Below, one piece after another: positions 6,001-58,500 of a stretch of DNA of 64,000 bases; position 1 is the stretch's first letter, and every line of letters starts with the position of its first letter. Made by a program: the position numbers and the translations under genes. The stretch lies in the NCBI GenBank assembly GCA_012934845.2, contig WNNJ02002480.1, positions 62,001-126,000 on the forward strand. Direction: 5' to 3'. Below the pieces are notes generated by a model. It saw only the letters and a program-made list of their open reading frames with translations, did not search any database and was not told the origin of the DNA. This DNA is from Pomphorhynchus laevis (lineage: Eukaryota; Acanthocephala; Palaeacanthocephala; Echinorhynchida; Pomphorhynchidae).

Positions 6001-9000
6001 AGATAAATCGCTTAGATCCGATGCATCTTGGTAGTCTAAACAGGTTTGGTTTCCATAGAATAACTTCATGCAATATCGATTCCACCGAGAGAGTATCTGA
6101 TGAAGATTGGATTTGCGAGATGGTTGCACTTATAGGTTCAAATTCTGTCTGAAGAATGTTCTGCGAACTTTTTATTCCAACGTTTTGAGTTTCAGATGTA
6201 GCACGTAAGTGCGATGTAAGTTGGACATTGGTAGACGCGTGTGTGGACAGCACCGGGTTTTTCCTGGAGCAGTTAGGAGCAGAGCACGTTGTGCAAGGTT
6301 TCGAATTGCGCGCACATTTACAGCGAATACATTTGGCTGCACTCGTGTTGCAGTTGCATCATTTTGATAGCGAAGAAGGTATTCCTCTAGGCATGTAGCG
6401 TCGATTTCAGAGCGTTGATACTGATCAAAGTGATTCTTTGTTATTGATGGATTAAAAAATTCGAAGGATTGTAAGATGTTTGTTATGTTTGTTAGTTACT
6501 CATCGAGAATATTTCTCGTTAAAATGTTTTGTAATATTTATCTGATCTGAAAGCTGGACGATCTGAAAGCTGGACGATCTGAAAGTGTATGTTTATTAGA
6601 AACCAAAAATTTTTTTGGTTGAAATTATTATTAATAATAAATGTTAATAATAACAATAGAAAATATACACTGACCATAAAATTCATTAATAAATATATAG
6701 ATAACATAAATATATGTAGACTTCAATAATTCTAAAAGTAAAGAAATAATAGGGTCAGATTTAAGTAAATATATTCCTAAAATAAGGTATAAGTTGTTAC
6801 CACCATTAGGACGAAAAATTTGTAATTATAATAAAGAATTAAAACCAATATGTAACGATAATATTAGAAACATCATAGAATCTGAATGCGATTGCAAAAG
6901 TCTTAATTTTGATAAAATAAATGAACATATATGCACTCATAATCTAGAATTAATTAAAAACAATGAATTAAGGAAAATGCCATTAAAAGCGTATAAATAT
7001 TTTTTTAATATTAATCATACTAAAATTTACATATTGAGGGTTATCCTAAACGGATCCCGTTAAATTGTTTTTTTGTTCAGACTTTGAAATTACTCTCGCT
7101 AAGTTGTTTCTTCATTATATCAATTATTCGTAGTATTAATATCTCCAATTAATTGAAAACAATGAAAATAATAATAATATTTTATATAATAATAACATAA
7201 AATTTTTTTTAAAAATAATATTATTATCAAAAAGTAAAATTTACAAGTTAGGTTACCCTCAAATGGGCCCAATATTTAATAACATATATTTAAATAACAA
7301 TATTTAAATAATAACATAAAATAATAACAATAAAAATAAAATTTACAATTCGTTATATAATGACTTAAATGCTTACTCTGGTAAATTGATTAATAGTAAA
7401 AGCTTAAATATTATATATTATATAATATATGCAGCGATGATTATGTACATAATTATGGCTAATTATGCACATAGACTTCAATAGATATGTTCTACTATTA
7501 TACATCAAAGATAAACATTTGGAAAACTTATATATTAGATAAAATTAGAGAGAAAATGAAAATAACAAACAATTATAAAATGAAAGATAAAATTAATAAA
7601 GATATGTATACAAAACCATGCGAACGATGATTAGTTTTGGCATTGTTTCGATGTTCACTAATGTGCCCACAGATAAAGCTATTGAGCTATCTGCAAAACT
7701 ATTAGAGGAAAGTTCGGATGACTCCTTTAAACTTTGTTTTGTTCAGATGATGATATGATTTCTAATGTTTATAAATATAATAATAAGGATTTTAAATAGT
7801 TGATACTGATCCATTATTGATATAATTATTGGAGCTGGATCAAAGTAAAGAAGAAATTATTTTTGATATTTCGCTAACTACTGTTAGCATCTTCAGAAAA
7901 TTACTATGTAATATCTATAGAATCTCCTAATCTATAGAATCTTATAATCTATTAATAGATTCATAATATTAATCTATTAATTACTATAGCATCTTCCTCG
8001 GTAGTTAGGAAGTTACTACAGTTAGAAGTAACTACAGTTGGGAAGTAATTACAGTCAGGATGCTAACTACTGTTAGCATCTTCCTAAGTAGTTAGGAAGT
8101 AACATCTTCCTAAGTAGTTAGTTAGACAAAGGACGATGCTAACAGTAGTTAGCGAAATATACAAAATAATTACGTATTTCCTTTGATCCAGCTCCAATAA
8201 TTAATTATTTATAGTTTTATATCAATTATTACTTTCAATAAACAATATAAATTATTACATGTCATTGTCATGGTTACACCGGTATTATATGAAAGATAAG
8301 TTAAAGATTCATAATATTAACCGATTAATAAAGAACCGATTTAAATATAAACACAACATATAAACGTTAAATAATAAATAACAATAAAAATAAAATTTAC
8401 AATTCGTTATATAATGACCTAAACGCTTACTTTGGTAAGCTGATTAATAGTGAAAGCTCGAATATATCTAAGATAAAAATTTGGAAAGATTATATATTTG
8501 ATAAAATTAAAAATAAAATGAAAATAAAAAACAATTATAAAAGGAAAGATAAAATTAATAAAGATATGTATAAAGAACTTACTAAATTAAAGGATAACTA
8601 TATAATAAGAACTATTGATAAAGCTAGTAATAACTTTGTCTTTATATGCAAAAAACTTTATTCTGATATACTAATGAAAGAGGTTAATTCTAATGATTTA
8701 AGTATAAACACGACATATGACTGTAGTGATTTAAGTTTAGAAACAATTATTACAAGTCACTGTTCTATAATGGATTAAAAGGAAAATGCAATCAAAGGAT
8801 ATAAATATAGATTGAATAAATTTGTATTGAAAAATATAATTTTTCAAATTATCATAAATATTTCATTTTGATCAAATTTTATTCTTTGAACTATTTATTT
8901 TGTAGCTCTTACATTTAAGGAAATAAAAGACCGAATTAAATTTTCGCTACTCACTAGCACATTCATAGCACAATTGTGTAGGTAAACAACTTTTATTTTG

Positions 9001-15000: not shown

Positions 15001-18000
15001 AGTAAAAGAGATTTCCAAATCTTACAAGTCTGTGCCAATAATGTTATTTTGTTGCAGATATGACCGTAATCTTATTTCGCATCTACTCAATCTGATTTTA
15101 GAGAACTTATATTTTAGACATAAAATAATGAATCTCTTAATTCTCAAAATTCTATATCTTTTAATCCTCAAATTCCATAATGAGAGTCACTATAATAAGA
15201 TTCAATGTAATGAGAGTTAATATACAATTCCATAATGAAAGTCACTTTCTTAAGAATTTATTTTTCGTTATACCAAAACTTATTTATACATAAATTGTTT
15301 TATAATTAAAGCATATTCTTCTTCTTTTTCTTCAGCGTTTGTTCCGCTTCGTTACGGAATCCGCTTTTTCTACTGTCACGCCGATGGGCTTTATTGATGG
15401 TTGATGTTCGTTTGCGCGAATAACGCGGCCGTAGCATTGTAGTCGCCTATTCGCGAAGTTCATTGAGGCACCATTTCATACTGTTGATGCGGCGGTTTTG
15501 TTTACAACTGGCTTGTCACGAAGTCTATCGCCAACCGTCCTCCTTTCTCAGCACGGGCTTGGGACCGGCCATAGCGGAGTTATAATTAAATCATATTGTA
15601 ATCATAAAATATTTTAATTCCGAATTATATAGATTTATTGGAATTTTTGTGTTTTTAGCATTTAAAACAAAAACAGGTATTCCATACGGCACAGTTAACC
15701 TTCTTACTGGGGTACCTGAAAATGAAACTACGATAACGAGTGTGGCTGGTGCTGGTACATTTATAATCGAATTTGCATCAATTAGCTTACTCACTGGTGA
15801 TTCCCGTTTTATCGATGCCGCGATTGTGGCGCTTGATGCTTTGTGGGAAGCAAGGACCTCGATTAATCTGGTAACACATGTGATCATGTATATTATCCTT
15901 TTCTTAAAAAAGGGGATATAAAATTAATTTAAAAATATAATTATAAAGTAAATTTTCTTATTAAATCATAAGTTGTAATAAAATAATTTCTTATATTGAT
16001 AAAAATAATAAAATTTATTAAATTATAAATGATAATTATCTAAATAAAGTTTTGCCATATAATACCATATAAAGTATTTTATTTTATTAAGTTTAATCAG
16101 AATAATACATTCTCTTGGGAAAAATGACATTTTATATTTAATTGATATTCCCAGAAAAGAAAAATTTAAAATTTCTTTAACTTAATCAAATTTTACTTAA
16201 TTTCTTTCTTTAATCGGGGAGATTTTTAGGAATTATCTGAAAAAAAAAACAAAATTAAAATGTATGAAAATAAATCATTTTAAACTTTCAAATCTGTGTT
16301 CAAAATGTTTGTGTCCATAAACATAAGATCTATCTACGATTTGAATTGGATTCCGGTTCAAAATTGATGCGTCCTCGAAATCTATTTCATGCTCTATTTC
16401 AAATGTCGATTTCGATAATTTTATCATCATATCATCATATTTTTACATTCCATTAATCGTGTTTAGAGGGCGCATTCATATTTTTTAATGTAGTTATTGA
16501 TGCACTCCTGACTTTATAAACTATACCTATTTTGTGACTGTTAACATTTACAAAATATTAAACTTTAAAGTTTTAAATCTTAGATTAAAAACATTTATTG
16601 ATTTTGTATTTATTCATATTTCTAATATTAATATGAATAATAATATTTTTTATTTATGGGAAGCAAGGAAAATTAAATACGAAAAAGATTATTCAATATT
16701 TCAATGGTAAATGCTATTATCAGGAGAAAATGTTACAGTTTTTTAAAGATTTTTACAGCCTTCTAAAAAGCTGTGAAAAAGTTCTGATGATCAACACAGT
16801 TGCCATTGAAATATTGAATAATATTTTTCGTATTTAATTTTCCTTGGTTCCTATAAATTAAAATATATTTATTCTTTAAAATCGCAATTTAAACGATTGA
16901 AATATAGTAGACTTCTATCAATCTATATTGGCCAGACTGGACAATATTTATTTAAAAGAAATCAAGTAACACGTCTATAATCTACAAAAAGGAACTGTTT
17001 CCAGTGCAATTTTAATTAATTCTCAAAGACATTTAATTTATCCATTTCGTAGAGTTTAGCAAATTTTAATTTATAGGAACCAAAAATAGTCAAACACGAA
17101 ATATATTATTCAATATTTCAATGGTAAATGCTATTATCAGGAGAAAATGTTACAGTTTTTTAAAGATTTTTACAGCCTTCTAAAAAGCTGTGAAAAAGTT
17201 CTGATGATCAACACAGTTGCCATTGAAATATTGAATAATATTTTTTGTGTTTGATTTTCCTTGGTTCCAATAAATTAAAATATATTTATTCTTTAAAATC
17301 GCAGTTTAAAAGATTGAAATATAGTAGACTTCTATCAATCTATATTGGCCAGACTGGACAATATTTATCTGAAAAAATCAAGCAACACGGAAAACAAATG
17401 GGTTTGATTTTCCTTGGTTTAATTTTCCTTTCGTGTTTAATTTTTATTGTTTCCTATTAATTAAAATTTGCTAAATTCAAGGAACCTGATAACTTAAATA
17501 TCTTCAATAATATTTTTAATGAATAAGCAGTAAGTATGCCGTTAAGATGCGAAACTTTGCTATTGCGGCCTATCGATAAAAAAATCATTTAACTAAATGC
17601 ATGTATAAAATTTGACAAATAAGTGAAAAGTTTCATTTATTCAATAGAAAATCAATCAAGTTGAATGTAGTTTATAAAAACTACTTTTTAGATAACGCAC
17701 TATTTCAAAAAACGTTTTGTGTTTGTTTTTGTTAAATATTGTCGAATATGCAATAACTTTCATATAAAAATATATTTTTGACAAATTTCGATGTCGTTTA
17801 GTGTTACTTTTATATAATAGGAGCTTGATAATATAAGCTTTACAGCTTGTATTGAGTATCTATTATAAGACTGAATTTGTCTAAATTATTCCAACTTATT
17901 TAATTAAGCGTTATTTAAAAGATTTTGTGAAATTTAAAAATCGCTAGGACCTATAGAGGTTATACATTATCCGGTTATTTTACATAAATCAACCGAAATT

Positions 18001-24935: not shown

Positions 24936-25364
24936 TTATTATAATACATCGTCTGTTATTTATAAGTCAAATCTTAAAATTTGACTTTTATTTTAAATTA
25001 CAATTTTAAATAATACCCTGATAAATATAATTTGTATAAAATTTTATATAATTATTTATTATTTATCTTTATATTTATTCGAATACATCGTCTGATATTT
25101 ATTAGTCAATTCATAAAAATTGATTTTTATTTGAAATTTCAATTATAAATTTTAACTTGATATAAATCTTTAAAAATCTTATATAATTATTTATTATTTA
25201 TCTTTATTTTTTATTTAAAAATAATAATTCGACTCAGTTATACGATCTGATTTCTTCGGGAAGCTTAACCGGGGATGCGTCTACAAAATATGCATAGCTC
25301 GGGGCGTTTCAACCCTTTTATTTATCATTATTTTTATTTATAAAAATAGTAGTTGGTCTATTTA

Positions 25365-28300
25365 TAAAATACGTAGACCCAATTATCTAATCTGATCTTT
25401 TTTGAAATTCGACAACTCTGACATTATAGATGTTTATTGTAGATATTTATTTATCTTTATTTTTAATTTATATAAAGTATAAAATACGTAGACCCAATTA
25501 TCTAATCTGATATGTTTTGAAATTCGACAACTCTGACATTATAGATGTTTATTGTAGATATTTATTTATCTTTATTTTTAATTTATATAAAGTATAAAAT
25601 ACGTAGACCCAATTATCTAATCTGATTTGTTTTGAAATTCGACAACTCTGACATTATAGATGTTTATTGTAGATATTTATTTATCTTTATTTTTAATTTA
25701 TATAAAGTATTAAATACGTAGAATCTGTTATCTGATCTGATTTGTTTTGAAATTCGACAACACAACTCTGACATTATAGATGTTTATTGTAGATATTTAT
25801 TTATCTTTATTTTTAATTTATATAAAGTATAAAATACGTAGAATCTGTTATCTGATCTGATTTGTTTTGAAATTCGACAACTCTGACATTATAGATGTTT
25901 ATTGTAGATATTTATTTATCTTTATTTTTAATTTATATAAAGTATTAAATACGTAGAATCTGTTATCTGATCTGATTTGTTTTGAAATTCGACAACACAA
26001 CTCTGACATTATAGATGTTTATTGTAGATATTTATTTATCTTTATTTTTAATTTATATAAAGTATAAAATACGTAGAATCTGTTATCTGATCTGATTTGT
26101 TTTGAAATTCGACAACTCTGACATTATAGATGTTTATTGTAGATATTTATTTATCTTTATTTTTAATTTATATAAAGTATTAAATACGTAGAATCTGTTA
26201 TCTGATCTGATTTGTTTTGAAATTCGACAACACAACTCTGACATTATAGATGTTTATTGTAGATATTTATTTATCTTAATTTTTAATTTATATAAAGTAT
26301 AAAATACGTAGAATCTGTTATCTGGTCTGATTTGTTTTAAAATTCGACAACACAACTCTGACATTATAGATGTTTATTGTAGATATTTATTTATCTTTAT
26401 TTTTTATTTTTATAAAGTATAAAATAAGTAGACCCAATTATCTAATCTGATTTGTTTTGAAATTCGACAACTCTGACATTATAGATGTTTATTGTAGATA
26501 TTTATTTATCTTTATTTTTAATTTATATAAAGTATAAAATACGTAGAATCTGTTATCTGATCTGATTTGTTTTGAAATTCGACAACACAACTCTGACATT
26601 ATAGATGTTTATTGTAGATATTTATTTATCTTTATTTTTAATTTATATAAAGTATAAAATACGTAGAATCTGTTATCTGATCTGATTTGTTTTGAAATTC
26701 GACAACTCTGACATTATAGATGTTTATTGTAGATATTTATTTATCTTTATTTTTAATTTATATAAAGTATTAAATACGTAGAATCTGTTATCTGATCTGA
26801 TTTGTTTTGAAATTCGACAACCCAACTCTGACATTATAGATGTTTATTGTAGATATTTATTTATCTTAATTTTTAATTTATATAAAGTATAAAATACGTA
26901 GAATCTGTTATCTGGTCTGATTTGTTTTAAAATTCGACAACACAACTCTGACATTATAGATGTTTATTGTAGATATTTATTTATCTTTATTTTTAATTTA
27001 TATAAAGTATAAAATACGTAGACCCAATTATCTAATCTGATATGTTTTGAAATTCGACAACTCTGACATTATAGATGTTTATTGTAGATATTTATTTATC
27101 TTTATTTTTAATTTATATAAAGTATAAAATACGTAGACTCAGTTATCTGGTCTGATTTGTTTTGAAATTCGACAACTCTGACATTATAGATGTTTATTGT
27201 AGATATTTATTTATCTTTATTTTTAATTTATATAAAGTATAAAATACGTAGACTCAGTTATCTGGTCTGATTTGTTTTGAAATTCGACAACACAACTCTG
27301 ACATTATAGATGTTTATTGTAGATATTTATTTATCTTTATTTTTAATTTATATAAAGTATAAAATACGTAGACTCAGTTATCTGGTCTGATTTGTTTTGA
27401 AATTCGACAACACAACTCTGACATTATAGATGTTTATTGTAGATATTTATTTATCTTTATTTTTAATTTATATAAAGTATAAAATACGTAGACCCAATTA
27501 TCTAATCTGATTTGTTTTGAAATTCGACAACTCTGACATTATAGATGTTTATTGTAGATATTTATTTATCTTTATTTTTAATTTATATAAAGTATAAAAT
27601 ACGTAGACTCAGTTATCTGGTCTGATTTGTTTTGAAATTCGACAACACAACTCTGACATTATAGATGTTTATTGTAGATATTTATTTATCTTTATTTTTA
27701 ATTTATATAAAGTATAAAATACGTAGACTCAGTTATCTGGTCTGATTTGTTTTGAAATTCGACAACACAACTCTGACATTATAGATGTTTATTGTAGATA
27801 TTTATTTATCTTTATTTTTAATTTATATAAAGTATAAAATACGTAGACTCAGTTATCTGGTCTGATTTGTTTTGAAATTCGACAACTCTGACATTATAGA
27901 TGTTTATTGTAGATATTTATTTATCTTTATTTTTAATTTATATAAAGTATAAAATACGTAGACTCAGTTATCTGGTCTGATTTGTTTTGAAATTCGACAA
28001 CACAACTCTGACATTATAGATGTTATTGTAGATATTTATTTATCTTTATTTTTAATTGATATAAAGTATAAAATACGTAGAATCTGTTATCTGATCTGAT
28101 TTGTTTTGAAATTCGACAACACAACTCTGACATTATAGATGTTATTGTAGATATTTATTTATCTTTATTTTTAATTGATATAAAGTATAAAATACGTAGA
28201 ATCTGTTATCTGATCTGATTTGTTTTGAAATTCGACAACACAACTCTGACATTATAGATGTTTATTGTAGATATTCATTTATCTTTATTTTTAATTTATA

Positions 28301-29515
28301 TAAAGTATAAAATACGTAGACTCAGTTATCTAATCTGATTTGTTTTGAAATTCGACAACTCTGACATTATAGATGTTTATTGTAGATATTTATTTATCTT
28401 TATTTTTAATTTATATAAAGTATTAAATACGTAGAATCTGTTATCTGATCTGATTTGTTTTGAAATTCGACAACACAACTCTGACATTATAGATGTTTAT
28501 TGTAGATATTTATTTATCTTTATTTTTAATTTATATAAAGTATAAAATACGTAGACTCAGTTATCTGGTCTGATTTGTTTTGAAATTCGACAACTCTGAC
28601 ATTATAGATGTTTATTGTAGATATTTATTTATCTTTATTTTTAATTTATATAAAGTATAAAATACGTAGACTCAGTTATCTGGTCTGATTTGTTTTGAAA
28701 TTCGACAACACAACTCTGACATTATAGATGTTTATTGTAGATATTTATTTATCTTTATTTTTTATTTTTATAAAGTATAAAATACGTAGACCCAATTATC
28801 TAATCTGATATGTTTTGAAATTCGACAACTCTGACATTATAGATGTTTATTGTAGATATTTATTTATCTTTATTTTTAATTTATATAAAGTATAAAATAC
28901 GTAGACTCAGTTATCTAATCTGATTTGTTTTGAAATTCGACAACTCTGACATTATAGATGTTTATTGTAGATATTTATTTATCTTTATTTTTAATTTATA
29001 TAAAGTATAAAATACGTAGACTCAGTTATCTGGTCTGATTTGTTTTGAAATTCGACAACACAACTCTGACATTATAGATGTTTATTGTAGATATTTATTT
29101 ATCTTTATTTTTAATTTATATAAAGTATAAAATACGTAGACTCAGTTATCTAATCTGATTTGTTTTGAAATTCGACAACTCTGACATTATAGATGTTTAT
29201 TGTAGATATTTATTTATCTTTATTTTTAATTTATATAAAGTATAAAATACGTAGACTCAGTTATCTAATCTGATTTGTTTTGAAATTCGACAACTCTGAC
29301 ATTATAGATGTTTATTGTAGATATTTATTTATCTTTATTTTTAATTTATATAAAGTATAAAATACGTAGACTCAGTTATCTGGTCTGATTTGTTTTGAAA
29401 TTCGACAACACAACTATGACATTATAGATGTTTATTGTAGATATTTATTTATCTTTATTTTTAATTTATATAAAGTATAAAATACGTCGACCCAATTATC
29501 TAATCTGATTTGTTC
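25365..29515 (+). repeat. 115/120-bp satellite array, about 35 copies
   Basis: Tandem monomers beginning at AAAATACGTAGACTCAGTTA and containing GAAATTCGACAACTCTGACA and GATGTTTATTGTAGATATTT. Two monomer types are interleaved: 115 bp, and 120 bp with an extra CACAA after GACAA. Variant blocks (TAGACCCAATTATCTAAT, TAGAATCTGTTATCTGAT, TAGACTCAGTTATCTGGT) occur in runs, so mixed dimers have been amplified as larger units. Identity is very high, implying recent homogenisation. Degenerate monomers extend left to about 25,230. It has no coding capacity. Confidence 0.96.
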
Positions 29516-29915: not shown

Positions 29916-31585
29916 AATACATCGTATATTATTTATTAGTCGATTTAAAACTGTGTATTTTAAAGTAAAAGCTTGCAAAATAATGCAATTTTATAAAGCT
30001 TCAGTATTAAGTTGCGTAGATACAGCACACTATATTGTATTTTACCTTCAGCTGTTATCTCGAAAACTAAAAATGTTGTTTTCTGAACGTATTGTTTTTA
30101 AATCTTTATTCGTCCATTGCGTTTATTGAATTAAATGTTCACAAATGAAAATTGTTATTTTATTAAATTACAACAATTATTATGGAAATTTCCCTTTTTT
30201 AATTTGATTTGCTAATTTATTATTTCTATTGAAAATAATATTCACGATTATTTTCTTTCACGATTAAATACGCATTCTCAGTTAGCTGACCTGATTTATC
30301 CAGGTTTAAGTATTTGTTGGCTGTGCAACTTGATGTTTTGTTTAAAAGAGTCATGTTGTCTGCTATTTTTGGCAATTTATTGACCGATCGTTTACAATTA
30401 AATTCCCTTGGAGACGGTGCAAGGGAAAGTCCAAGATATAAAGCATGGAGTTAACTATCAACGCCACAATTATTGCATGTGTAACTACTGAATTCGATAA
30501 CTCGTTAAAGTTTGTGAGCACTCAGTTCGAATTTGCCGATCACTTTAAAGTGTACGATCAGTTAGAAGTTTGTTAATTTCTTGAAAGTAATGATGAACGT
30601 CTTCAAGGTAAATCCATGAAAATTAGAAAGTGAAGTATATTGTAATTATAATTTAATTTTCTACATTAAAACTTTTCATTAAATTAATAGATAAATAAAT
30701 TTATGAAATAAATTATTTATCTAAATTAATTATTAAATTATTCATAAATGTATGGATTAACCTAGAGCAGTACTGAGATTAGTATTAAGCTTTAGATTGA
30801 AGAATAAACATTAGATAGCATTAAAAGATAAAAATAAATCACGCATTCGTAAAAGTTTATATAGCAATTATAAAAAAGGGAGTCATAAGAGATAAAAATA
30901 AATCAAATATTCGTAAAAATTTATATAGAATTATAAAAACAGCAAAGTAATTAATACATTTATATTATTAATTTAACAAAATTATTAATTATTCATTATT
31001 ATAATGATATGATATAATATCATTGTAATAATATATAATATTAATATAATAATAAATATTTATATTATATTTATATTAAGAATTAATATTAATATTATAT
31101 ATAATATTAATAACAATAATAATTAATATATAATATCATTATTATAATTATTCATTAGTCATCTTTCATTTCATGAAAGATGTCAAAATCCTCATGATAA
31201 AGGATAAATAACATTGAAAGTTCATTATGTATTAATACATTAATAAACACATTTATGTGAGATCAGCCAAAATTTATCGAATAAAAGTGCATAAACAACA
31301 AAATAATTTGGTATTCATAATTTTATAACATTTTATGAAATGTTATAATTTGGTATTCATAATTTCATAATATTTTATGAAATGCTATAATTTCATTTTA
31401 TGAAATTTTAACATTTTTTACTTCATTTTATGAAATAACCTTAAATATTTCTTAATCACTATTATATAAAAACAAAAGCGGTAAACAAAATTTATTATAT
31501 TTTTATATAATAAACAGTAAAAGATAATATGATAATAAATAAATTAAAATAATAAATTTAATACAATTTAATACAATTTAATACA
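29916..31585. other. AT-rich intergenic DNA, no gene recognised
   Basis: Contains a single decayed satellite monomer near 30,262 (TACGCATTCTCAGTTAGCTG), a short frame at 30,446-30,577 that I cannot place (43 residues), an imperfect 70-bp tandem duplication near 30,820-30,950, and long AT palindromes at 30,990-31,160. Confidence 0.5.
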
Positions 31586-33757
31586 GTCGTTTCGGCTGCC
31601 TTTTGATATGTTTAAAAGGCATCTCCGAGTATTTGCTAACGTAGTAGCATGGGCATAGCCTCTTTAAACTAACAACGTGCTTTCCGAATCATCCTAATTT
31701 AATTCATCAGGAATTTTATTTGCTGTCGCTGCTTGCTTTCTCACAGGATCCCTTTGTCGGATACGTTTTTATAATTTAATCGTAGAATGTGTAAAACTGT
31801 GCACCGAAGGCTAAAAAGCTTCAGTTTCATAATTGTAGATGTTGCCAAAAAAACCGGAGTTCGATTACAAGTAGAGCAGACTTCCTTATCACTCCTAGAC
31901 GAGCTGATGATAGGCGTCAGCACTCATCAGTAGAGTGAAGTACCATCAGTCGCTTCAGCTGCCTTGTGATATATTTAAAAGGCATCTCCGAGAATTTGCT
32001 ATCGTAGTAGAATGGACATAGCCTCTTTAAACTAACAACGTGCTTTCCGGATGATCCTAATTTTATTCGACAGGAATTTTATTTGCTGTCGCTGCTTGCT
32101 TTCTCACAGGATCCCTTTGTCGGATACGTTTTTATAATTTAATCGTAGAATGTGTAAAACTGTGCTCCGGGAGCTAAAACGCTTCAGTTTCATAATTGTA
32201 GATTTTGCCAAAAACCGGAGTTCGATTACAAGTACAGCAGACTTCCTTATCACTCCTAGACGAGCTGATGATAGGCGTCAGCACTCATCAGTAGAGTGAA
32301 CTACCATCAGTCGTTTCGGCTGCCTTGTGATATATTTAAAAGACATCTCCGAGAATTTGCTAACGTAGTAGCATGGGCATAGCCTCTTTAAACTAACAAC
32401 GTGCTTTCCGCATCATCCTAATTGAATTTGGCAAGAATTTTATTTGCTGTCGCTGCTTGCTTTCTCACAGGATCCCTTTGTCGGATACGTTTTTATAATT
32501 TAATCGTAGAATGTGTAAAACTGTGCTCCGGGAGCTAAAAAGCTTCAGTTTCATAATTGCAGATGTTGTCAAAAAAATCGGAGTTCGATTACAAGTAGAG
32601 CAGACTTCCTTATCACTCCTAGACGAGCTGATGATAGGCGGCAGCACTCATCAGTAGAGTGAAGTACCATCAGTCGTTTCGGCTGCCTTGTGATATATTT
32701 AAAAGGCATCTCCGAGAATTTGCTAACGTAGTAGCATGGGCATAGCCTCTTTAAACTAACAACGTGCTTTCCGGATCATCCTAATTTTATTCGGCAGGAA
32801 TTTTATTTGCTGTCGCTGCTTGCTTTCTCACAGGATCCCTTTGTCGGATACGTTTTTATAATTTAATCGTAGAATGTGTAAAACTGTGCTCCGGGAGCTA
32901 AAAAGCTTCAGTTTCATAATTGTAGATGTTGCCAAAAAACCGGAGTTCGATTACAAGTACAGCAGACTTCCTTATCACTCCTAGACGAGCTGATGATAGG
33001 CGTCAGCACTCATCAGTAGAGTGAACTACCATCAGTCGTTTCGGCTGCCTTGTGATATATTTAAAAGGCATCTCCGAGAATTTGCTAACGTAGTAGCATG
33101 GGCATAGCCTCTTTAAACTAACAACGTGCTTTCCGGATCATCCTAATTTTATTCGGCAGGAATTTTATTTGCTGTCGCTGCTTGCTTTCTCACAGGATCC
33201 CTTTGTCGGATACGTTTTTATAATTTAATCGTAGAATGTGTAAAACTGTGCTCCGGGAGCTAAAAAGCTTCAGTTTCATAATCGTAAATTTCGCCAAAAA
33301 CCGGAGTTCGATTACATGCAGAGCAGACTTCCTTATCACTCCTAGACGAGCTGATGGTAGCCGGCAGCACTCATCAGTAGGGTGAACTACCATCAGTCGT
33401 TTCGGCTGCCTTGTGATATATTTAAAAGGCATCTCCGAGAATTTGCTAACGTAGTAGCATGGGCATAGCCTCTTTAAACTAACAACGTGCTTTCCGGATC
33501 ATCCTAATTTTATTCGGCAAGAATTTTATTTGCTGTTGCTGCTTGCTTTCTCACAGGATCCTTTTGTCGGATACGTTTTTATAATTTAATCGTAGAATGT
33601 GTAAAACCGTACTCCGGGAGCTAAAAAGCTTCAGTTTCATAATCGTAGATTTTGCCAAATAACCGGAGTTCGTTTAAAAGTAGAGCAGACTTCCTTGTGA
33701 CTGCTAGACGAGCTGAAGGTAGCCAACAGCACTCATCAGTAGTGTGAACTACTGATG
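31586..33757 (-). repeat. 362-bp satellite, six copies
   Basis: Unit starts (GTCGTTTCGGCTGCC and close variants) lie at 31586, 31949, 32310, 32673, 33035 and 33396, giving periods of 361-363 bp. Copies differ by scattered substitutions. Short minus-strand frames of 60-80 residues recur only because the unit recurs. On the minus strand each unit junction carries CCGAAACGAC and CTACTGATGAG, resembling hammerhead core boxes. The array ends by running into the hammerhead relics at 33,772. Confidence 0.95.
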
Positions 33758-33771
33758 AGACGGTGTTTGCT

Positions 33772-33845
33772 ACCGTTTCATCATCACAATGACTCATCAG
33801 TGCCAGATCCCTCCCACTGCTGGATACAGAGGAGGACTACATCAA
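33772..33845 (-). ncRNA. hammerhead ribozyme relic, copy 1
   Basis: Minus strand: CTGATGA, then stem II GTCAT-TGTG-ATGAT, then GAAAC. The three core boxes are present and stem II pairs with one G-U. The stem I strand before the core (GATCTGGCA) is there, but its partner TGCCAG and the cleavage-site arm have been lost, so it should not cleave. Confidence 0.6.
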
Positions 33846-33930
33846 TTGTGATTATGTAATGGAATAAAAATGAAAATTGATGCAATCATTTCTAGCCAGA
33901 CGCGGAAGATCGACGATAACAGTAGCAAGT

Positions 33931-33999
33931 TCCGTTTCGTCATCACAATGACTCATCAGCGCCAGATCCCTCCCACCGTTGGATACAGAGGAATACCGG
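33931..33999 (-). ncRNA. hammerhead ribozyme relic, copy 2
   Basis: Minus strand: CTGATGA-GTCAT-TGTG-ATGAC-GAAAC core intact, stem I GCCGG/CTGGC. The 5' stem III strand does not match ACGGA after GAA. It shares a palindrome with copy 3, which directly abuts it. Confidence 0.6.
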
Positions 34000-34063
34000 C
34001 AATTCTCTGTATCCAGCAGTGAGAGGGATCTGGCACTTAAGAGTCATTGTGATGACGAAACGG
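33997..34063 (+). ncRNA. hammerhead ribozyme relic, copy 3 (opposite strand)
   Basis: Plus strand with the same layout, but CTGATGA has changed to CTTAAGA. Stem II GTCAT-TGTG-ATGAC and GAAACGG are kept. With copy 2 it forms an inverted pair extending into the flanks (CGCGGAAGA... / ...CTTCCGCG). Confidence 0.55.
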
Positions 34064-34435
34064 TACTTGCTACTTTTATCGACGTTCTTCCGCGTCTGGC
34101 TAGAAATGATTGCGTACATAATTCAAGCGCAATGGTCTCACACTCCCTCTTGAAAATTGGTATTCATTACAAATTTTTATTCGTTTACAGCAGAATGTTG
34201 CATATTAAAGTTCGATAAGTTACTAATAAATAAATCACTTTTATACTAAGAATTATTAGCGCATTACATAATTAGTGATTAATAAATTTGAAATCCAAAA
34301 TGGTAAAAGCATTAATAATCAATAAAAATTTGATATTTATAGTTAAGCATAACTTTTTTGCTTGTTAAATGCAGGCAAAGAAGTCAGCGATAAAAAAATA
34401 TGAAAAATAGAGTTTAAAATGGAATAGAATATGTT

Positions 34436-35614: not shown

Positions 35615-35774
35615 ATACTTACCTGGCGCAGGGGTAAACGATGATCAAGAAGGTCGTTCCCCCGGACCGAGGCTGAGTCATTGCACGTCGATTCGGTTGA
35701 AGTCTGCGATTTCCCCAAACTGGGGAACCTCGGGCGCAGAATTTGTGATAGTTGGGGTTGCGTTCGCGCGCCCC
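35615..35774 (+). ncRNA. U1: U1 spliceosomal snRNA
   Basis: U1 pairs with 5' splice sites at the start of spliceosome assembly. The gene begins ATACTTACCTGG, the splice-site-recognition sequence (35615-35626). Stem-loop I carries GATCAAGAAGG (35643-35653), the U1-70K-binding loop. Stem-loop II carries ATTGCAC (35680-35686), the U1A-binding loop. Then GCGATTTCCCC and stem-loop III (CCCC/GGGG), the Sm site AATTTGTG (35740-35747), and terminal stem-loop IV GGGG-TTGCG-TTCG-CGCG-CCCC (to 35774). The length of 160 nt is close to the usual 164. All functional elements are intact, so this is probably a working gene rather than a pseudogene. It lies among PLE and non-LTR debris. Confidence 0.95.
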
Positions 35775-35955
35775 TTTATAAATAAAGAAAAATTCTAAAG
35801 TTGTCATTGAATACTGATAAAATTGACTAATACTTAAGCATGTCAACGTGATGGTGTGACATCACATGATAAAGATTAAGCTTTTATTTTATCATTTCTT
35901 TTAGCATATGATATCCAAGAGTGCATTTTTTTCTGTTATCTCAATTTTTGCACGG

Positions 35956-36099: not shown

Positions 36100-36630
36100 A
36101 AAAACTAAAAAAATCTATACGTCAACTTGCGGTTGACGTTTAATACTTACACATAGCAACGTTGTAGATTTTTGAAGATTTACAACTAAAGATCATGGTT
36201 TTATTGTATCTATTGTTGTTGTGTTGTAAATGGACGCTGAAGATCTGATTCACAATGTTGATTTAAATCAACATTGTAGGTCTGCTTCACGATGAAGATT
36301 ATGCTTATGTTGGATTATATATTTGTGTCAGATATCGAAAATTTATTTTGAAAAGTTCCAATTATTGTGTTATTAAAATATATCGTTTGATGTAAAATTC
36401 AGTTTATAATTTATCTAGATGTAAATATAACAATTATTTATTATTAATTAATTTTTTATTATTTAACTATTTAACTTTTATTTTGCATTATTTTTAATTT
36501 GCAATATAAAATACTTAGTAAAAATTTAAATAATTTTAAATTTTAGTAAAAATTTAAAATTAAAATTTGAAATAAAAATCGATTTATGAATTTGTTCATA
36601 ACTGTGTAAAAACTAAATCTAAACAATATA
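36100..36630. other. AT-rich spacer
   Basis: No gene recognised. An imperfect palindrome around 36,240-36,300 (AATGTTGATTTAAATCAACATT) is visible. Satellite-like words such as TTGCAATATAAAATACTTAG (36,499) suggest PLE-tail debris. Confidence 0.4.
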
Positions 36631-37010
36631 AATATATGAAATATATGTTTCGATACATTGATGATATATGTGTATTTAATTCTAATAATTTTTATTCAAT
36701 TAGTGAGCACATTTATCCAGAAAGCCTTATTCTTAACAAAACCAATATTAATGATAAAGAAGGTGTATATCTAGATATGAACATTAAATTAACATTAACT
36801 AAAACTACTATTAATTTATATCGTAAAGATGACATATTTAAATTTACAAGAAACATATTTTTGCATGAGCATTCATGCATACCATATAATATAAAATATA
36901 ATACATTAAATAATGAAATTTTAAGAATTGCAACAATATGTAATGATATTGGCTTTCTTCAAAATCATTTAAATAATTTAATAGATATATATTTTAATGT
37001 ATGTATTTAG
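36630..37010 (+). mobile_element. PLE reverse-transcriptase palm fragment
   Basis: A 124-residue frame with FRYIDDICVFN (motif C, catalytic Asp pair in Y-x-D-D), then EHIYPESLILNKT, then EGVYLDMNIKL, NLYRKDD and an F-L-H-E-H-S-C-I-P stretch. This is the typical PLE order after the YxDD box. It breaks near LIDIYF. Confidence 0.8.
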
Positions 37011-40020: not shown

Positions 40021-41709
40021 ATCTTCAAGCTTAATGAGGTACTGGAGAAATACGATGGAAGCACGGGAGTCGACGAGTGAATTCGTAAGTTTGAATTTGC
40101 GGTTAAGATTAACGAGATCAAGGAGCCGCATAAAATGCTTCCACTATTTCTGCATGGAGGAGCTTTCGATGTTTACGACTCATTTCCTGAGGACGTTCAT
40201 AGTGATATCGTGAAATAAGTCTAACAACTACACTCCGCTTTTGGCAAAACCAAGTTCGAAGCATACAAGGCGATGGTTTCAATGAGATGGGACGGGCGGA
40301 TGGAAATGGCCGAATTTATGGCAAACGTGGCGAAATCCAGCAATTTAATCGTGAATGGTGACAGGGCATTGCAGCACTGTGCTTTCGTGAATGGTCTGCC
40401 TGAGAGCGTGCAGGCTTCGATCAGAGCTAATTCGGATTTATATACCCTCACGACCGAACAGTTAATCGTCACTGCACATACTTTCGTGCAAGCAATAAGC
40501 TCATGTTGCGTGTGCCGATCGGGCGCGGATCAGAATGAGAACAAGTCGGAATCAGATGAAACTTGATCTGCAACAGTGAAGGGGAAACCGCATGGAGACG
40601 AAGTTACGCCAATCGCAACAAAGACATTGTCCGCTACCGGTGCGGAAAGTTGGGCCATATCAGCCGATTTTGTCGAGGCAAGCCAAAAAGCTAGCAAAGG
40701 GGGTCTGATTTGTACAGTGTCGGACCCCTGTCAGGCAATGACAGGCACGTTAGAATGCCAGTGATGGTAAATGGAAAAAGATATATGGCATTGGTGGATA
40801 CATGTTGCTCGATTACTGTATTACGCAATAACCTATGGCGATCCGGTAAGTTCTGCGGCAAAAGTGTAGATGTTACAATGATGTACGGCACGCGTATTCA
40901 ATGCGATCAAGCCTGGGTTGACTTAGATATTAATGGTCGGAAACTGCGAACACAATGCCTCTTGTCGAACATAATGCTTCATGGAGTCGACGTCTTGTTG
41001 CGCCTGGATGTTATAAAGCAATTGGGCGGCATTACAGTTACCAAAGATTTGAGAATAGCGCATGATGTCAGCAGAGCATACGCTTGTTCAGTGTCAAGTA
41101 ATGAAATGGAGATAAAAGACTCAGATTTCGAGGCTAAGTTCAAAAACGGTCATTGGACAGTTGGTTGGAGGTGGAAGGACAAGCCACCAACGCTACAAAA
41201 CAAAATTCCTCTCTAAAGAGTCACGGTGGCTGCCCAAGAAAAATTTCATGCTGAAATAAAGAAATGGATCAATAACGATTGGATGACGGGATCAGAATCG
41301 AACGCGTCTTATTGCATCCCAATGATGGCTGTGTTACAACAAAAAAGGATAAAGTGCGACCTGTCCTAGACTATCGGGAGCTGAATGAATATGTTGTAAG
41401 TAATACAGGAGACAGCCAAGTATGTTCGTTTGCTATACGTAAATGGCGGACTTTCGGATCGCACGCGAGCGTGATCGACATCAAAGACGCATATTTGTGC
41501 ATCCGTGTTTCCTAGGAATTACAAAGTTACCAGCTGATTAAATTTGAAGGTAAAGTCTACAAGCTCACACGTTTGGGATTTGGGTTAAACGTCACTCCTA
41601 AAATAATAAATTCTATCATTGATCGGATCCTATCTTTGAAGCCATAATGGAAAGGGGTTGTCAATCACTATTTCGACGACATCATAGTAGATGGTAGCAA
41701 GGTGGACCC
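40021..41709 (+). mobile_element. Ty3/gypsy-type retroelement relic (gag, protease, RT start)
   Basis: The gag-like part (40,021-40,760) has LNEVLEKYDGSTG, then HKMLPLFLHGGAFDVY, and a zinc knuckle RCGKLGHISRFCRGKP. A retropepsin follows with YMALVDTCCSITVL and MLHGVDVLLRLDVI. The RT start holds KVRPVLDYRELNEYV, SVIDIKDAYLCIRV, LTRLGFGLNVTPKI and HYFDDIIVDGS. Several stops and frame changes, a Cys replacing the Gly of the protease D-T-G triad, and no recognisable LTR show it is dead. The RT breaks off at a perfect palindrome at 41,690. Confidence 0.85.
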
Positions 41710-41733
41710 TCAAGGGTCCACCTTGCTACCATC
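41690..41733. repeat. perfect 20-bp inverted repeat at a chimeric junction
   Basis: GATGGTAGCAAGGTGGACCC, a TCAA loop, then the exact reverse complement. The left arm is gypsy RT sequence (V-D-G-S-K-V-D-P). The right arm is its foldback, and non-LTR retroelement sequence begins immediately after it. Confidence 0.9.
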
Positions 41734-54981: not shown

Positions 54982-57178
54982 CTAGCACCCCGCTTTCCGA
55001 TTGAACAACCCGGGGTCTTTCACCCCTCGATGAATCCAAGCGGCGCCGACGATGTTGGGTAAGCGAGAGACGAGGAGCTTCAGAAACCTTAGTCTTTGCT
55101 CTCGGGGACGTCCTCTAGAGAAGAAGACTAATCCCGAGATAGCCCCGGTGCCCCAAAGACGCACCTGGTTTTTCCCATTCAACGACAGATGCTGGGCCCG
55201 TTTCAGAGCCCAACTAGCTCTCTTCAGGAAACGTTTTAGTCTATCCAGGTCAGCTTTCGCTGACCAGTTCACCGAAACGGTGAACTTCAGGTATTTTACT
55301 CGAATTGTGAAGGTAGGGATGGGTTCAGAGGCAAATATGGAGGAGAGTGCAGAGAGTGCTAATCTCTTAAGCTTTTGCTTTGTCGCAGGGGAGCCATGGA
55401 AGACAACCACCTGCGATTTGGCGGAATTCAAAACAAGATTGGACCTGAGTAACTGGTCTTTTAATCTTAAAAAGAATCGGCTGATGGCAGAGACTACGCC
55501 CTTACACCTGCATCCGGAGAACAGGGCTGTTGTGTCATCAGCGTACACTACTAGACGTTGATCGCGTTTAAATATTTTGAATAGATTTATGAAGGCAGCA
55601 AGATACAAGATAGGAGAGAGAGGGGGACCTTGAGGCACACACGTTATAGGGTAGAACTGACGCACATCAGGGTTGTCTTCATAATAAAATCGCTTGGTGT
55701 ACAGCAGTATCTTCACCCTGTCAACAATTATTGCAGGCAACCCGAGGGACCTGAGAAAATAGATAACAAATGGTATGGAGATGCGGTCAAATGCAGCCGA
55801 AACGCCAAGGAAATGGACCGAGCGACCTTTGACGAACCCATGGAAACTAGGTGGGATTAATTTTCGCCTACTTAAATGATCGCGGATTCTACGCGCAAGC
55901 GCTTTTTCGTAGATCGAGACGAGGGAATTTTGAATCGAGATGGGCCGCAGGTCTTTCGGACAAGAGACCGGATGCTTTTTAGGTAAAAATATACGCCTAC
56001 TAATGTTGATGCCGGTAACATCGGATGGGGTGGCTAAAAGCATTGTGACGGCCACCTCCTTTCTTTGATCGGCTGTCAAAAGCTGACAGACCAGAGAAGA
56101 AAGAGGAGCGACGGTTTTGGAGGTGCCCGGAAGAGGCCCTTAGGCATTGAGAATATCTGGTACAGATAAGTCTCTACTCCTGAAGTCTCCCCAAGGCAGG
56201 ATTGGTTGCGGTGATTGTGTGGCTCCATAATTGTGTAGGGTTAGTGACTCCTTCAGAACTTTGTCAAGGCCTATACTGCCGATCCAACCCGCAGCCCTAT
56301 CCCTCCAACAAACTTCTCCTTGTTGAATATCTTCCAGAAGGAAGACAGAGAAGTGTTAAGACGAGCGATACTCGACCTATCCCTACTCAGCTGGAAGTAG
56401 AATCTGGTACGCAAGTATTCAGTTGAGAGCGTCTGTTTGGTGGAAGAAGAGATACCAGGGAGGTGCAATAGTTTAGCTAGGACCTTGAGTTTTGTCGGAG
56501 TGGGACTGAAAATACGACCTTTATAGGTTGTCGAAAGAAACGCGGAGGCTTGCGAAGAGAGATAGGAATTAAATTAGGTTAAACTCTCATTACTAATTCG
56601 GGGGAAGCGTTGGATCACCGCCCTGAAGAAAGCCACTCTGATCGAGTCAAAGTGGAATCTTCTACAAAGCAGTGAATCCTCCTCTATCCGCCAACGAATT
56701 AGATCATGAGAGGTGGACAGATTTTGCCGCGATTTCTTTGTGCAGAAGGGTTTACGCAACCACTTCTCGTGAAGCAATAGTAAGTCGAGGAGTGAGTTCG
56801 TTGATGTGCAATGAAAGGTGGTGACGGTGGTTTATGAATAAGATAACCGTTCCTGGCTCTGCGGAGTGCTGCATTAATCCAACGACCAGTTCTGTCGTTG
56901 AAGTCACCTAGTACCATGTCATAGCCGCCATCAATAATCCCATCCAGGAGGTCACGGTTCTTGTGAATCTATCCTGGACGAATGTAGACGTTGGTTAGAC
57001 TGAGGCGTTTACTCTTCTTAATGAGTGAAACTACTAAGCAAGAAAAAGGCTCGGACTTACTCACTATTATGGCAGATTAGTTGGACGGGAGCAGCTGACC
57101 TAGACAGAGTTAGGTGTGGAAAGGTTCCCCTTCCCACCTCTAGCCCCATCAGAGATCGGAGCCCCTGGGCTTTAAGGA
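54982..57178 (-). mobile_element. APE-type non-LTR retrotransposon, second copy (5' truncated)
   Basis: Close relative of 43,290-46,560. The RT frame 54982-56079 is open for 365 residues but has lost the bases between GFVKGRSVHF and SAAFDRIS, removing the first Asp of motif A. YADDTTALF, NSAKSQVVVFH and VNWSAKADLD remain. Endonuclease pieces at 56574-57000 include LGDFNDRTGRWINAALRRA. About 260 bp matching 45,205-45,460 are missing. It ends at about 57,178 in CCCCTGGG, where the hammerhead element begins. Confidence 0.85.
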
Positions 57179-57243
57179 GAGTGAGACCATTCCGCGTGAA
57201 TTTCTTGTTAAACATGTAAGCCAGACGCGAAAGAATGACGAAC

Positions 57244-57320
57244 GCCGTTTCGTCATCACAATGACTCATCAGTGCCAGATCTCTCCCACTACTGGATGCA
57301 GAGGAGGACTGGCAGACGGC
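57244..57320 (-). ncRNA. type III hammerhead ribozyme, foldable and complete
   Basis: A self-cleaving RNA read on the minus strand, 5' to 3': stem III GCCGT, cleavage-site C, stem I TGCCAG with a 30-nt loop closing on CTGGCA, core box CTGATGA, stem II GTCAT-TGTG-ATGAC, core box GAA, stem III ACGGC. All three stems pair perfectly and every invariant core base is present. Predicted cleavage follows the C of GTC, between + strand positions 57315 and 57314. Stem III is the open stem, hence type III, as in satellite tobacco ringspot virus RNA and plant retrozymes; most described animal hammerheads are type I. Confidence 0.87.
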
Positions 57321-57547
57321 TATCAATGAATGAATCAATGTGAATGATGTACTAGAAAACTCTCTAGTAACATCATAGAGTACTAAATCAGTACTACACC
57401 TTCACCAAAAAGGATCATTAGCAAAAGCACTGGCAAATGCTAGCGCAGGTCTCTTTAATATCGGCTAACTTTTATTTAATGAGAGTGACACCATTCCGCG
57501 TGAATTTTTTGTTAAACATGTAAGCTAGACGCGAAAGAATGACGAAT

Positions 57548-57622
57548 GCCGTTTCGTCATCACAATGACTCATCAGTGCCAGATCCTTCCCACTACTGGA
57601 TGCAGAGGAGAACTTGCCAGTG
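57548..57622 (-). ncRNA. hammerhead relic broken at the inversion boundary
   Basis: CTGATGA, stem II and GAAACGGC are intact. The stem I/stem III 5' strand is replaced from about 57,613 by the start of the inverted arm (minus strand reads CACTGGCAAGTTC instead of GTCTGCCAGTCC), so it should not fold or cleave. Confidence 0.6.
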
Positions 57623-57729
57623 CTTTTGTCAATGATCCTTTTTGGTGGAGCTGTAATACTGATTTGGTACTCTATGATGTTACTAGAAAGTTTTCTAGTA
57701 CATCATTCACATTGATTCATTCATTGATT

Positions 57730-57806
57730 GCCGTCTGCCAGTCCTCCTCTGCATCCAGTAGTAGGAGGGATCTGGCTTTGATGAGTCATTGTGATGACCA
57801 AACTAC
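57730..57806 (+). ncRNA. hammerhead relic, mirror of the intact copy
   Basis: Plus-strand mirror of 57244-57320. CTGATGA has become TTGATGA, GAAAC has become CAAAC, and one stem III strand reads ACTAC. Stem I and stem II still pair. Core substitutions at invariant positions should abolish cleavage. Confidence 0.65.
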
Positions 57807-57845
57807 ATTCGTCATTCTTTCGCGTCTGGCTTACATGTTTTACAA

Positions 57846-58500
57846 AAAAATATTATAATATATTATATTATATATTATTATAGTAATATATTATATTAAT
57901 GAGGAGAATTTTATTAAAGCACTTAACTTGTTGCTTTTGGCCAAAATTAAAAATTACAAATTTTACAGAGAAACAGAAAATGAGTAGAACAAGGAATTGT
58001 ACATAAAATAAAATTCAAGAATAAAGAAAGAGAAGAAAGGAATTAATGACTATTGTAAATAACTTGTTTTACTTTAATAAATACTTACTAATAATATAAG
58101 AATAAATCGAATATATGTAAACCATTATATTCCATAACGTTTTGATCCTTGTTTGTATTGCGGCTATTTGTTGACAGTGTAAAGATTAAGGCGTTGATGA
58201 GCATATAAAATTAGGATTACCTGTTTATTGGTATCAATTTGATGAAGGTTCAACGTGCATAGGTGGGGACATGAAAATATGTGTACCAGCGAAGCGTAGT
58301 GTTTAAGGCAGTAGCTGCATATTCAATTGGTAGATCTTTCATGGCAAAGATGCAAATTTTACAGAATTTGTCATGATAACCGTAGACTGACACCCTCAAA
58401 ACTAGCTAGCAATTGGAAGATAAAGAATTTCTTCAATTAAATTGGGTATATGCTGGGGGTATTGTCGAATTCAGACGGTATCGAAGCTATTTTACTTTCT
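57846..58500. other. AT-rich spacer
   Basis: No gene recognised. It probably includes the 3' end of the minus-strand CR1-like element that follows. Confidence 0.35.

Follow-up and report, generated by a model that had tools for sequence, protein, structure and literature searches.

The current work concerns a stretch of 64,000 nt (the whole of which is referred to below as the window) from contig WNNJ02002480.1 of the acanthocephalan worm Pomphorhynchus laevis, an animal genome as an earlier note on this DNA had supposed, and in particular a hammerhead ribozyme on its minus strand at 57244-57320 together with the repeat family to which this ribozyme belongs. The HSP70 of this genome (L068) has 100% identity to P. 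laevis GJ496_006540 and 92% to another protein of that species, in keeping with P. laevis or a very near relative as the host. Read 5' to 3' on the minus strand, the element has the order GCCGU C UGCCAG, 30 nt, CUGGCA CUGAUGA GUCAU UGUG AUGAC GAA ACGGC. Stem III is formed by GCCGU (57320-57316) and ACGGC (57248-57244), stem I by UGCCAG (57314-57309) and CUGGCA (57278-57273), and stem II by GUCAU and AUGAC with a UGUG loop (57265-57252), the CUGAUGA core being located at 57272-57266 and GAA at 57251-57249. The invariant core (CUGANGA, GAA, H17 and A15.1-U16.1) and three helices are all present, helix III is open and helices I and II are closed by loops, which is the arrangement of type III. C17 is found at 57315 and cleavage is predicted between 57315 and 57314, in agreement with the 5'-OH end that the earlier note had placed at 57314.

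The complete type III motif described in that note was recovered by direct reading of the core and the three stems and, in addition, by a strict search pattern for type III, which required the core bases and stems I, II and III of at least 5, 4 and 4 bp, respectively, with G-U pairs allowed; no other site of the 64-kb window matched it, and 300 dinucleotide shuffles gave no match at all. The stem I pairs are likewise as had been described, but the 30-nt loop that was said to close them is itself predicted to be paired (7 bp, a bulge, 4 bp and an AUCCA loop) as an extension of helix I. When the near flanks were included (57239-57325) the hammerhead was the predicted fold, and a slice two bases shorter gave z = -3.1, yet with stem III displaced by other pairs. 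Judged from its base order, the motif is a real and complete type III hammerhead for which cleavage is predicted.

The site was not the monomeric copy that the earlier note had taken it for: it is one unit of a multicopy family of 304-nt repeats, which are called retrozymes below and numbered from the base after the predicted cut (u1). In the window, the intact ribozyme is part of an insertion consisting of two copies in head-to-head orientation (Table 1), whose outer 3' ends correspond to u144 (57171) and u114 (57849, carrying a short A run), that is, to one each of two preferred 3' sites named B and A in this work. Five further cores in the window are mutated or without the 5' strands of stems I and III. 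A related subfamily with a unit of ≈321 nt (subfamily 2) is represented by three decayed copies at 33.7-34.2 kb, the outer 3' ends of its head-to-head pair corresponding to subfamily positions 120 and 165. A long interspersed nuclear element (LINE) adjacent to the insertion was considered as the owner of the ribozyme, which would then have represented its 5' end; this was rejected, and the two are treated as neighbours because the two LINE copies are homologous up to 57043 only, and the first base of the retrozyme is 57171. Open frames, measured from stop to stop, extend across the retrozyme copies at 57057-57401 (minus strand, 114 aa) and 57529-57858 (plus strand, 109 aa). Two tandem satellites, at 31584-33752 (361-bp unit, 6 copies) and 25363-29514 (115-bp unit, 35 copies), are also present, the first of which directly adjoins the subfamily-2 copies.

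Table 1. Hammerhead and retrozyme features of the window.
Feature	Position	Strand	Remarks
Type III hammerhead ribozyme, extended helix I	57244..57320	-	direct reading; strict pattern
Retrozyme copy 1, 444 nt, ≈1.5 units	57171..57614	-	cores at 57248 and 57552
Retrozyme copy 2, head-to-head with copy 1	57614..57849	+	ribozyme decayed
Second hammerhead core	57552..57576	-	5' strands of stems I and III lost at inversion junction
Third hammerhead core	57778..57802	+	two mismatches relative to intact core
Decayed hammerhead, related ≈321-nt subfamily	33769..33847	-	
Subfamily-2 head-to-head pair	33882..34158	.	cores 33935 (-) and 34036 (+)

A search of the genome (249 Mb, 3242 contigs) with the 84-nt motif produced at least 41 matches, 40 of which, including that of the window, are 98-100% identical over 83-84 nt (40 of 1583 candidates scored), while u144-304 produced at least 86 (40 of 1821 candidates scored) and subfamily 2 at least 54 (40 of 1721 candidates scored). 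Copies occur singly, in tandem and head-to-head across the genome, with matches spaced by ≈304 nt in the arrays of contigs C196 and C764 and with ≈11 units arranged head-to-tail at locus L009. Dispersed tandem repeats of 150-450 nt with one hammerhead per unit, as found here, are a feature of animal retrozymes without long terminal repeats (LTRs), and the type III family is young. Between the consensuses of the two subfamilies, that of subfamily 2 being derived from four monomers of which one is chimeric, the ribozyme (u1-71) is 95.8% identical as compared to 78.8% elsewhere (Fisher p 5e-4). Such a chimera is the unit at L060 1490-1799, the first half of which is of subfamily 2 and the second of subfamily 1; template switching or recombination would yield a unit of this kind. 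Core matches amounted to 150, among which the 5' part could be aligned in 120. An intact core together with complete pairing in stems I to III is found in 68 of these 120 copies, a set that may include duplicates from overlapping loci.

The ends of the insertions were collected from 35 loci (20 plus 15 fetched) and the window, the loci being the best BLAST matches to u298-u78 or u144-304, with old or short copies under-sampled. Among 66 5' termini, some of which are inner junctions or derive from the same locus, 16 are located in u1-7 (binomial p 1.8e-12) and seven exactly at u1, two of these seven being in L016; at L022 and L023 the copy starts at position 1 against plain flanking DNA. The same start was observed in subfamily 2, where three of 20 termini (L057, L059 and L062; L067, which overlaps L066, was excluded) are exactly at position 1 (p 3e-5). 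The 3' termini are concentrated in two regions ≈36 nt apart, namely u100-116 (site A, around u110; 20 of 66) and u140-153 (site B, around u146; 31 of 66). These two sites are paired at inverted loci: 23 of 25 with both ends classed have A on one side and B on the other (p 5e-5, three families pooled), the A and B windows having been drawn post hoc and for each family separately, with recurrence in three families serving as the check. In this count both copies of L011 were kept, L067 and L033 (the latter overlapping L032) were dropped, and L017 and L051, the ends of which are complex or cut by the locus edge, were omitted. The A/B pairing was found at 14 of 22 inverted loci of subfamily 1, and all six of subfamily 2 pair both 3' sites.

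Flanking repeats were assessed by comparison of 27-nt ends (22 nt of flank and 5 nt of element), and at 22 of 33 loci the two flanks share at least 7 nt as compared to 17.6% of mismatched pairs, a level reached in none of 2000 permutations. These repeats exceed the 4 bp above which target duplications are counted as typical of animal retrozymes. The clearest layout is that of L023, which extends exactly from u1 to u144 and is bounded by copies of AACTTCAAATA, and L019 has the flank repeat ATGTGATA together with microhomology, further examples being L043 and L046. Taken as a record of the process in the sequence, the insertion ends suggest that the RNA cleaves itself prior to being copied back into the genome.

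The following comparisons are based on the accessible portions of the papers cited. The family resembles the animal non-LTR retrozymes, which are likewise ≈300-nt tandem units of low GC content with one hammerhead each (Cervera & de la Pena 2020, PMC7229834), and for which target duplications over 4 bp are reported and Penelope is the proposed mover (PMC7229834). It differs from them in having a type III rather than a type I ribozyme, with a stem III of 5-7 bp, and in that its insertion ends could be mapped here, the cut site and a pair of 3' sites being the positions identified. Type III hammerheads with an open stem III are shared with the plant LTR retrozymes (PMC7761336, PMC7229834), yet in the latter each of two LTRs contains a ribozyme, with a spacing of ≈700 nt, and a primer-binding site (PBS), a polypurine tract (PPT) and 4-bp duplications are present in addition (PMC4918200, via PMC7761336, PMC7229834), whereas the worm units are head-to-tail repeats of 304-321 nt. 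The earlier note had considered a type III ribozyme unusual in an animal, and animal retrozymes are indeed described as type I (PMC7229834, PMC7761336, PMC11722881); it is not without precedent, however, as extended type III motifs have been reported from termite and dipteran genomes, those of termites being isolated, and from hepatitis delta virus (HDV)-like RNAs of toad and termite (PMC7936874). These motifs also have an interrupted helix I with an extra hairpin, but the worm stem I has 6 bp instead of 5, its stem II 5 bp instead of 6 and its loop is UGUG instead of YGGC, and in contrast to the isolated termite motifs the worm ribozyme is part of a mobile tandem family (PMC7936874). Metazoan genomes have been searched for both hammerhead types (PMC7229834), and the P. 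laevis genome paper, which reports ≈260 Mb with 63% repeats, does not contain the words ribozyme or satellite in its main text as accessible (PMC7310846). No type III animal retrozyme was found in the retrozyme and hammerhead literature, nor any publication linking hammerhead ribozymes with acanthocephalans, most subscription papers and all preprints being outside the scope of this search. Because its hammerhead is of type III and not of type I, the family is classed as a variant of the animal non-LTR retrozymes, being otherwise of that kind: very probably, this acanthocephalan worm carries a non-autonomous non-LTR retrozyme in which a type III hammerhead takes the place of type I.

According to the cycle that we propose, the order of which we infer, a single copy or a tandem array would be transcribed, and the hammerhead would cut each unit between GCCGUC and UGCCAG to generate RNAs of ≈304 nt with a 5'-OH at u1. 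The RNA would then refold. The strand that immediately precedes the cut, CACAUUGAUUCAU in subfamily 1, is predicted in both subfamilies to be able to pair with the core and stem II, stem I being kept, and in the cleaved monomer this alternative fold is predicted to bring both ends together; such refolding would silence the ribozyme and position the ends for ligation, and thereby presumably for circularisation. A reverse transcriptase supplied in trans, in all likelihood of the Penelope type, would then copy the linear or circular RNA, probably starting at the AU-rich sites around u110 and u146 and from both ends of a staggered target break. Several rounds of copying would give tandem copies, and the joining of two cDNAs would give head-to-head copies with differing 3' ends and target duplications of ≈8-12 nt. 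A consensus fold of the whole unit (9 sequences) places sites A and B in large loops and contains four compensatory pairs, three of them in hairpins near u226-275 and the fourth in stem I, these changes being common to three subfamily-2 rows and possibly representing few events.

Whether a circle forms part of this cycle bears on its main competitor, a real though minority possibility in our judgement, in which the template is a linear and partly uncut multimeric RNA. The accumulation of 5' ends at u1 is what run-off on a cleaved linear RNA would give, and the head-to-head join of two copies at u1/u3 in L046 also fits such a template, whereas an array of ≈11 units with intact internal cut sites is more easily obtained from a circle, and circular RNA accumulates for the animal type I retrozymes (PMC7229834).

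With regard to the enzyme that moves the retrozyme, the head-to-head copies, the short target duplications and an optional 3' tail on one side only are Penelope-like traits. In the rotifer Adineta vaga, Penelope elements form partial tandems and head-to-head inverted copies with inverted Penelope LTRs (pLTRs). Several copies are accompanied by 8-10-bp duplications while others lack them, and one of the two inverted pLTRs may optionally carry a 3' tail of 31 bp, comparable to ≈36-42 nt in the worm (PMC3846280). The rotifer elements differ in that they encode a reverse transcriptase and an endonuclease, for which the 304-nt unit is far too short (PMC3846280). Penelope has moreover been put forward as a strong candidate for the mover of animal retrozymes (PMC7229834). 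Since rotifer Penelope elements show similar features, Penelope-type machinery is, by analogy, the likely mover of the type III family, and the A/B footprint would lend structural support to such mobilisation. The authors of the rotifer study favour self-priming for inverted Penelope copies (PMC3846280); for the worm, priming from both target ends is considered the more probable of the two routes because one end is unlike the other and many insertions have flanking repeats. One candidate enzyme lies in the window. The reverse-transcriptase frame at 36576-37010 (plus strand) has at least 150 genome copies at 99% identity or more (150 of 18803 candidates scored), and its family, in which some frames reach 908 aa, is very young. 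On account of its YIDD-type motif it is taken by us to be Penelope-like, the family libraries having given no confirmation. GIY-YIG is the Penelope type of endonuclease (PMC3846280), and this domain has 75 matches in the genome, a signal that is not specific as, among 14 control genomes of bacteria and archaea, 12 also score for the same domain.

It is rather unlikely, to our mind, that the machinery of LINEs and not that of Penelope moves the retrozyme, the inverted copies then being products of LINE-style twin priming. LINE twin priming yields inversions, two LINE copies are present in the window, and short A runs that are absent from the unit occur at six 3' ends (L022, L041, L054, the window, L025 and L048), which is also a point to be held against the Penelope scheme. 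LINEs make up 36% of the P. laevis repeats (PMC7310846), and LINEs as well as Penelope-like elements have been named as possible movers (PMC7229834). The two preferred internal 3' ends, one per side at most inverted loci, nonetheless resemble the optional tail of Penelope.

A type I hammerhead family is present in the same genome. RF00163 at E ≤ 10 gave 72 matches, 62 of which are above the cut-off (73 of 40608 candidates scored), and these belong to 295-nt units in tandem and inverted arrangement on contigs C2913, C1798, C2871, C1351 and others (L029-L036, L055). No BLAST match between type I and type III units was detected in 8 loci, and a model built in this analysis from the type III motif (R1) found nothing below E 0.6 in 15 loci used for the type I/III comparison. 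All three inverted type I loci show the A/B pairing. Quite tentatively, ribozyme topology may be an exchangeable module of animal retrozymes, in the sense that type I and type III families unrelated in sequence would share a Penelope-type mover and its twin-primed A/B footprint, the type III family being templated by a self-cleaved and bistable RNA with a cutting fold prior to cleavage and a closed, ligation-ready fold thereafter. Within the window, two motifs of the form CTGAAGA-hairpin-GAAA (763-790, plus strand, and 7869-7896, minus strand) resemble minimal Penelope-type type I hammerheads and are situated in a 1.68-kb inverted repeat (353-2034 and 6626-8306) that is 99.7% identical.

A number of results weigh against the reading of the family as a self-cleaving retrozyme copied by Penelope-type machinery. 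With respect to the ribozyme, the test with the type III covariance model that the earlier note had proposed did not come out in its favour: a scan of the window against Rfam at E ≤ 1 returned no hammerhead match, RF00008 on 106 bases scanned alone gave a partial match of 19 bits (E 0.049; cut-off 48.5), and genome-wide none of its 22 matches is above the cut-off (68 of 56174 candidates scored). Plausibly, the motif is rejected because its helix I is long; model R1 scores it at 102.8 bits, the motif itself being in the training set. Covariation inside the ribozyme is uninformative (four pairs changed on both sides, equalled in 124 of 500 shuffles). The region u176-225 is conserved between the subfamilies about as well as the ribozyme, and within subfamily 1 (35 monomers) the ribozyme is hardly different from the rest (98.3% and 97.4%). 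In the precursor, the inactive alternative is predicted to be favoured over the cutting fold by 4.7-5.7 kcal/mol, with the consequence that cleavage might be slow, and when subfamily 1 is folded as a single sequence a loop contains site B but site A is mostly paired. As for the ends, 13 of 66 5' termini form a second cluster in u240-261, a palindromic hairpin at which the reverse transcriptase might stall or snap back; the flanks share less than 7 nt at 11 of 33 loci, including the window copy (3 nt); and the inverted loci of subfamily 1 that lack the A/B pairing comprise two B/B, four B/other and two other/other. None of 12 5' termini of the type I family coincides with the cut site of that family, a count from which L033 and a terminus situated at the edge of a locus were excluded. 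Finally, the candidate reverse transcriptase has no convincing Pfam, NCBIfam or PDB match, and a protein search produced one weak unnamed relative only (E 3e-4).

Alternatively, the family might be viewed as ordinary satellite DNA spread by unequal crossing-over, with the ribozyme as a relic or coincidence that plays no role in its spread. The tandem arrays spaced by 304 nt, the broken core or stem pair in 52 of the 120 ribozyme copies and the 30 additional core matches without an alignable 5' part would be expected of such DNA, yet dispersed short insertions bear flank repeats, 5' ends are at the cleavage site, 3' ends are paired and the ribozyme is on average better conserved between subfamilies than the rest, which makes this explanation very improbable. 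Scarcely credible is the view that the worm is infected by an RNA agent, viroid-like or HDV-like, of which the units are DNA copies. Base pairing is predicted for approximately two thirds of the unit as a circle, which speaks for it. Against it, the ribozyme was detected by the strict pattern on a single strand of the window, a delta antigen gene would not fit into 304 nt, the pairing of the 3' ends is that seen for the type I retrozyme in this genome, and the exact core has no match in viral contigs, a set that may not include the P. laevis genome's own records.

Some further observations concern other parts of the window and the assembly. A match to the twister ribozyme (type-P1) at 15531-15586 (minus strand; 39 bits, E 5e-5) is below the Rfam cut-off of 67.2, and a U1 spliceosomal RNA gene or copy is found at 35615-35777 (plus strand, 133.7 bits). 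A near-perfect palindrome at 41691-41732, adjoining LINE-related sequence, has a weak microRNA-precursor score (MIR7486) on both strands, and COX1-like fragments with in-frame stops occur on several assembly contigs (L037, L038 and L039).

The worm family breaks the division by which type I is the retrozyme hammerhead of animals and type III that of plants, and both types occur in one genome. Its insertion ends seem to record the biochemistry of their formation, in that 5' ends coincide with the cut and the pairing of 3' ends matches the Penelope tail. In this case a hammerhead whose helix I is extended escapes the type III model of Rfam. Two questions are thereby made testable, namely whether cleaved RNA is an intermediate of transposition in animals, and which enzyme moves retrozymes.
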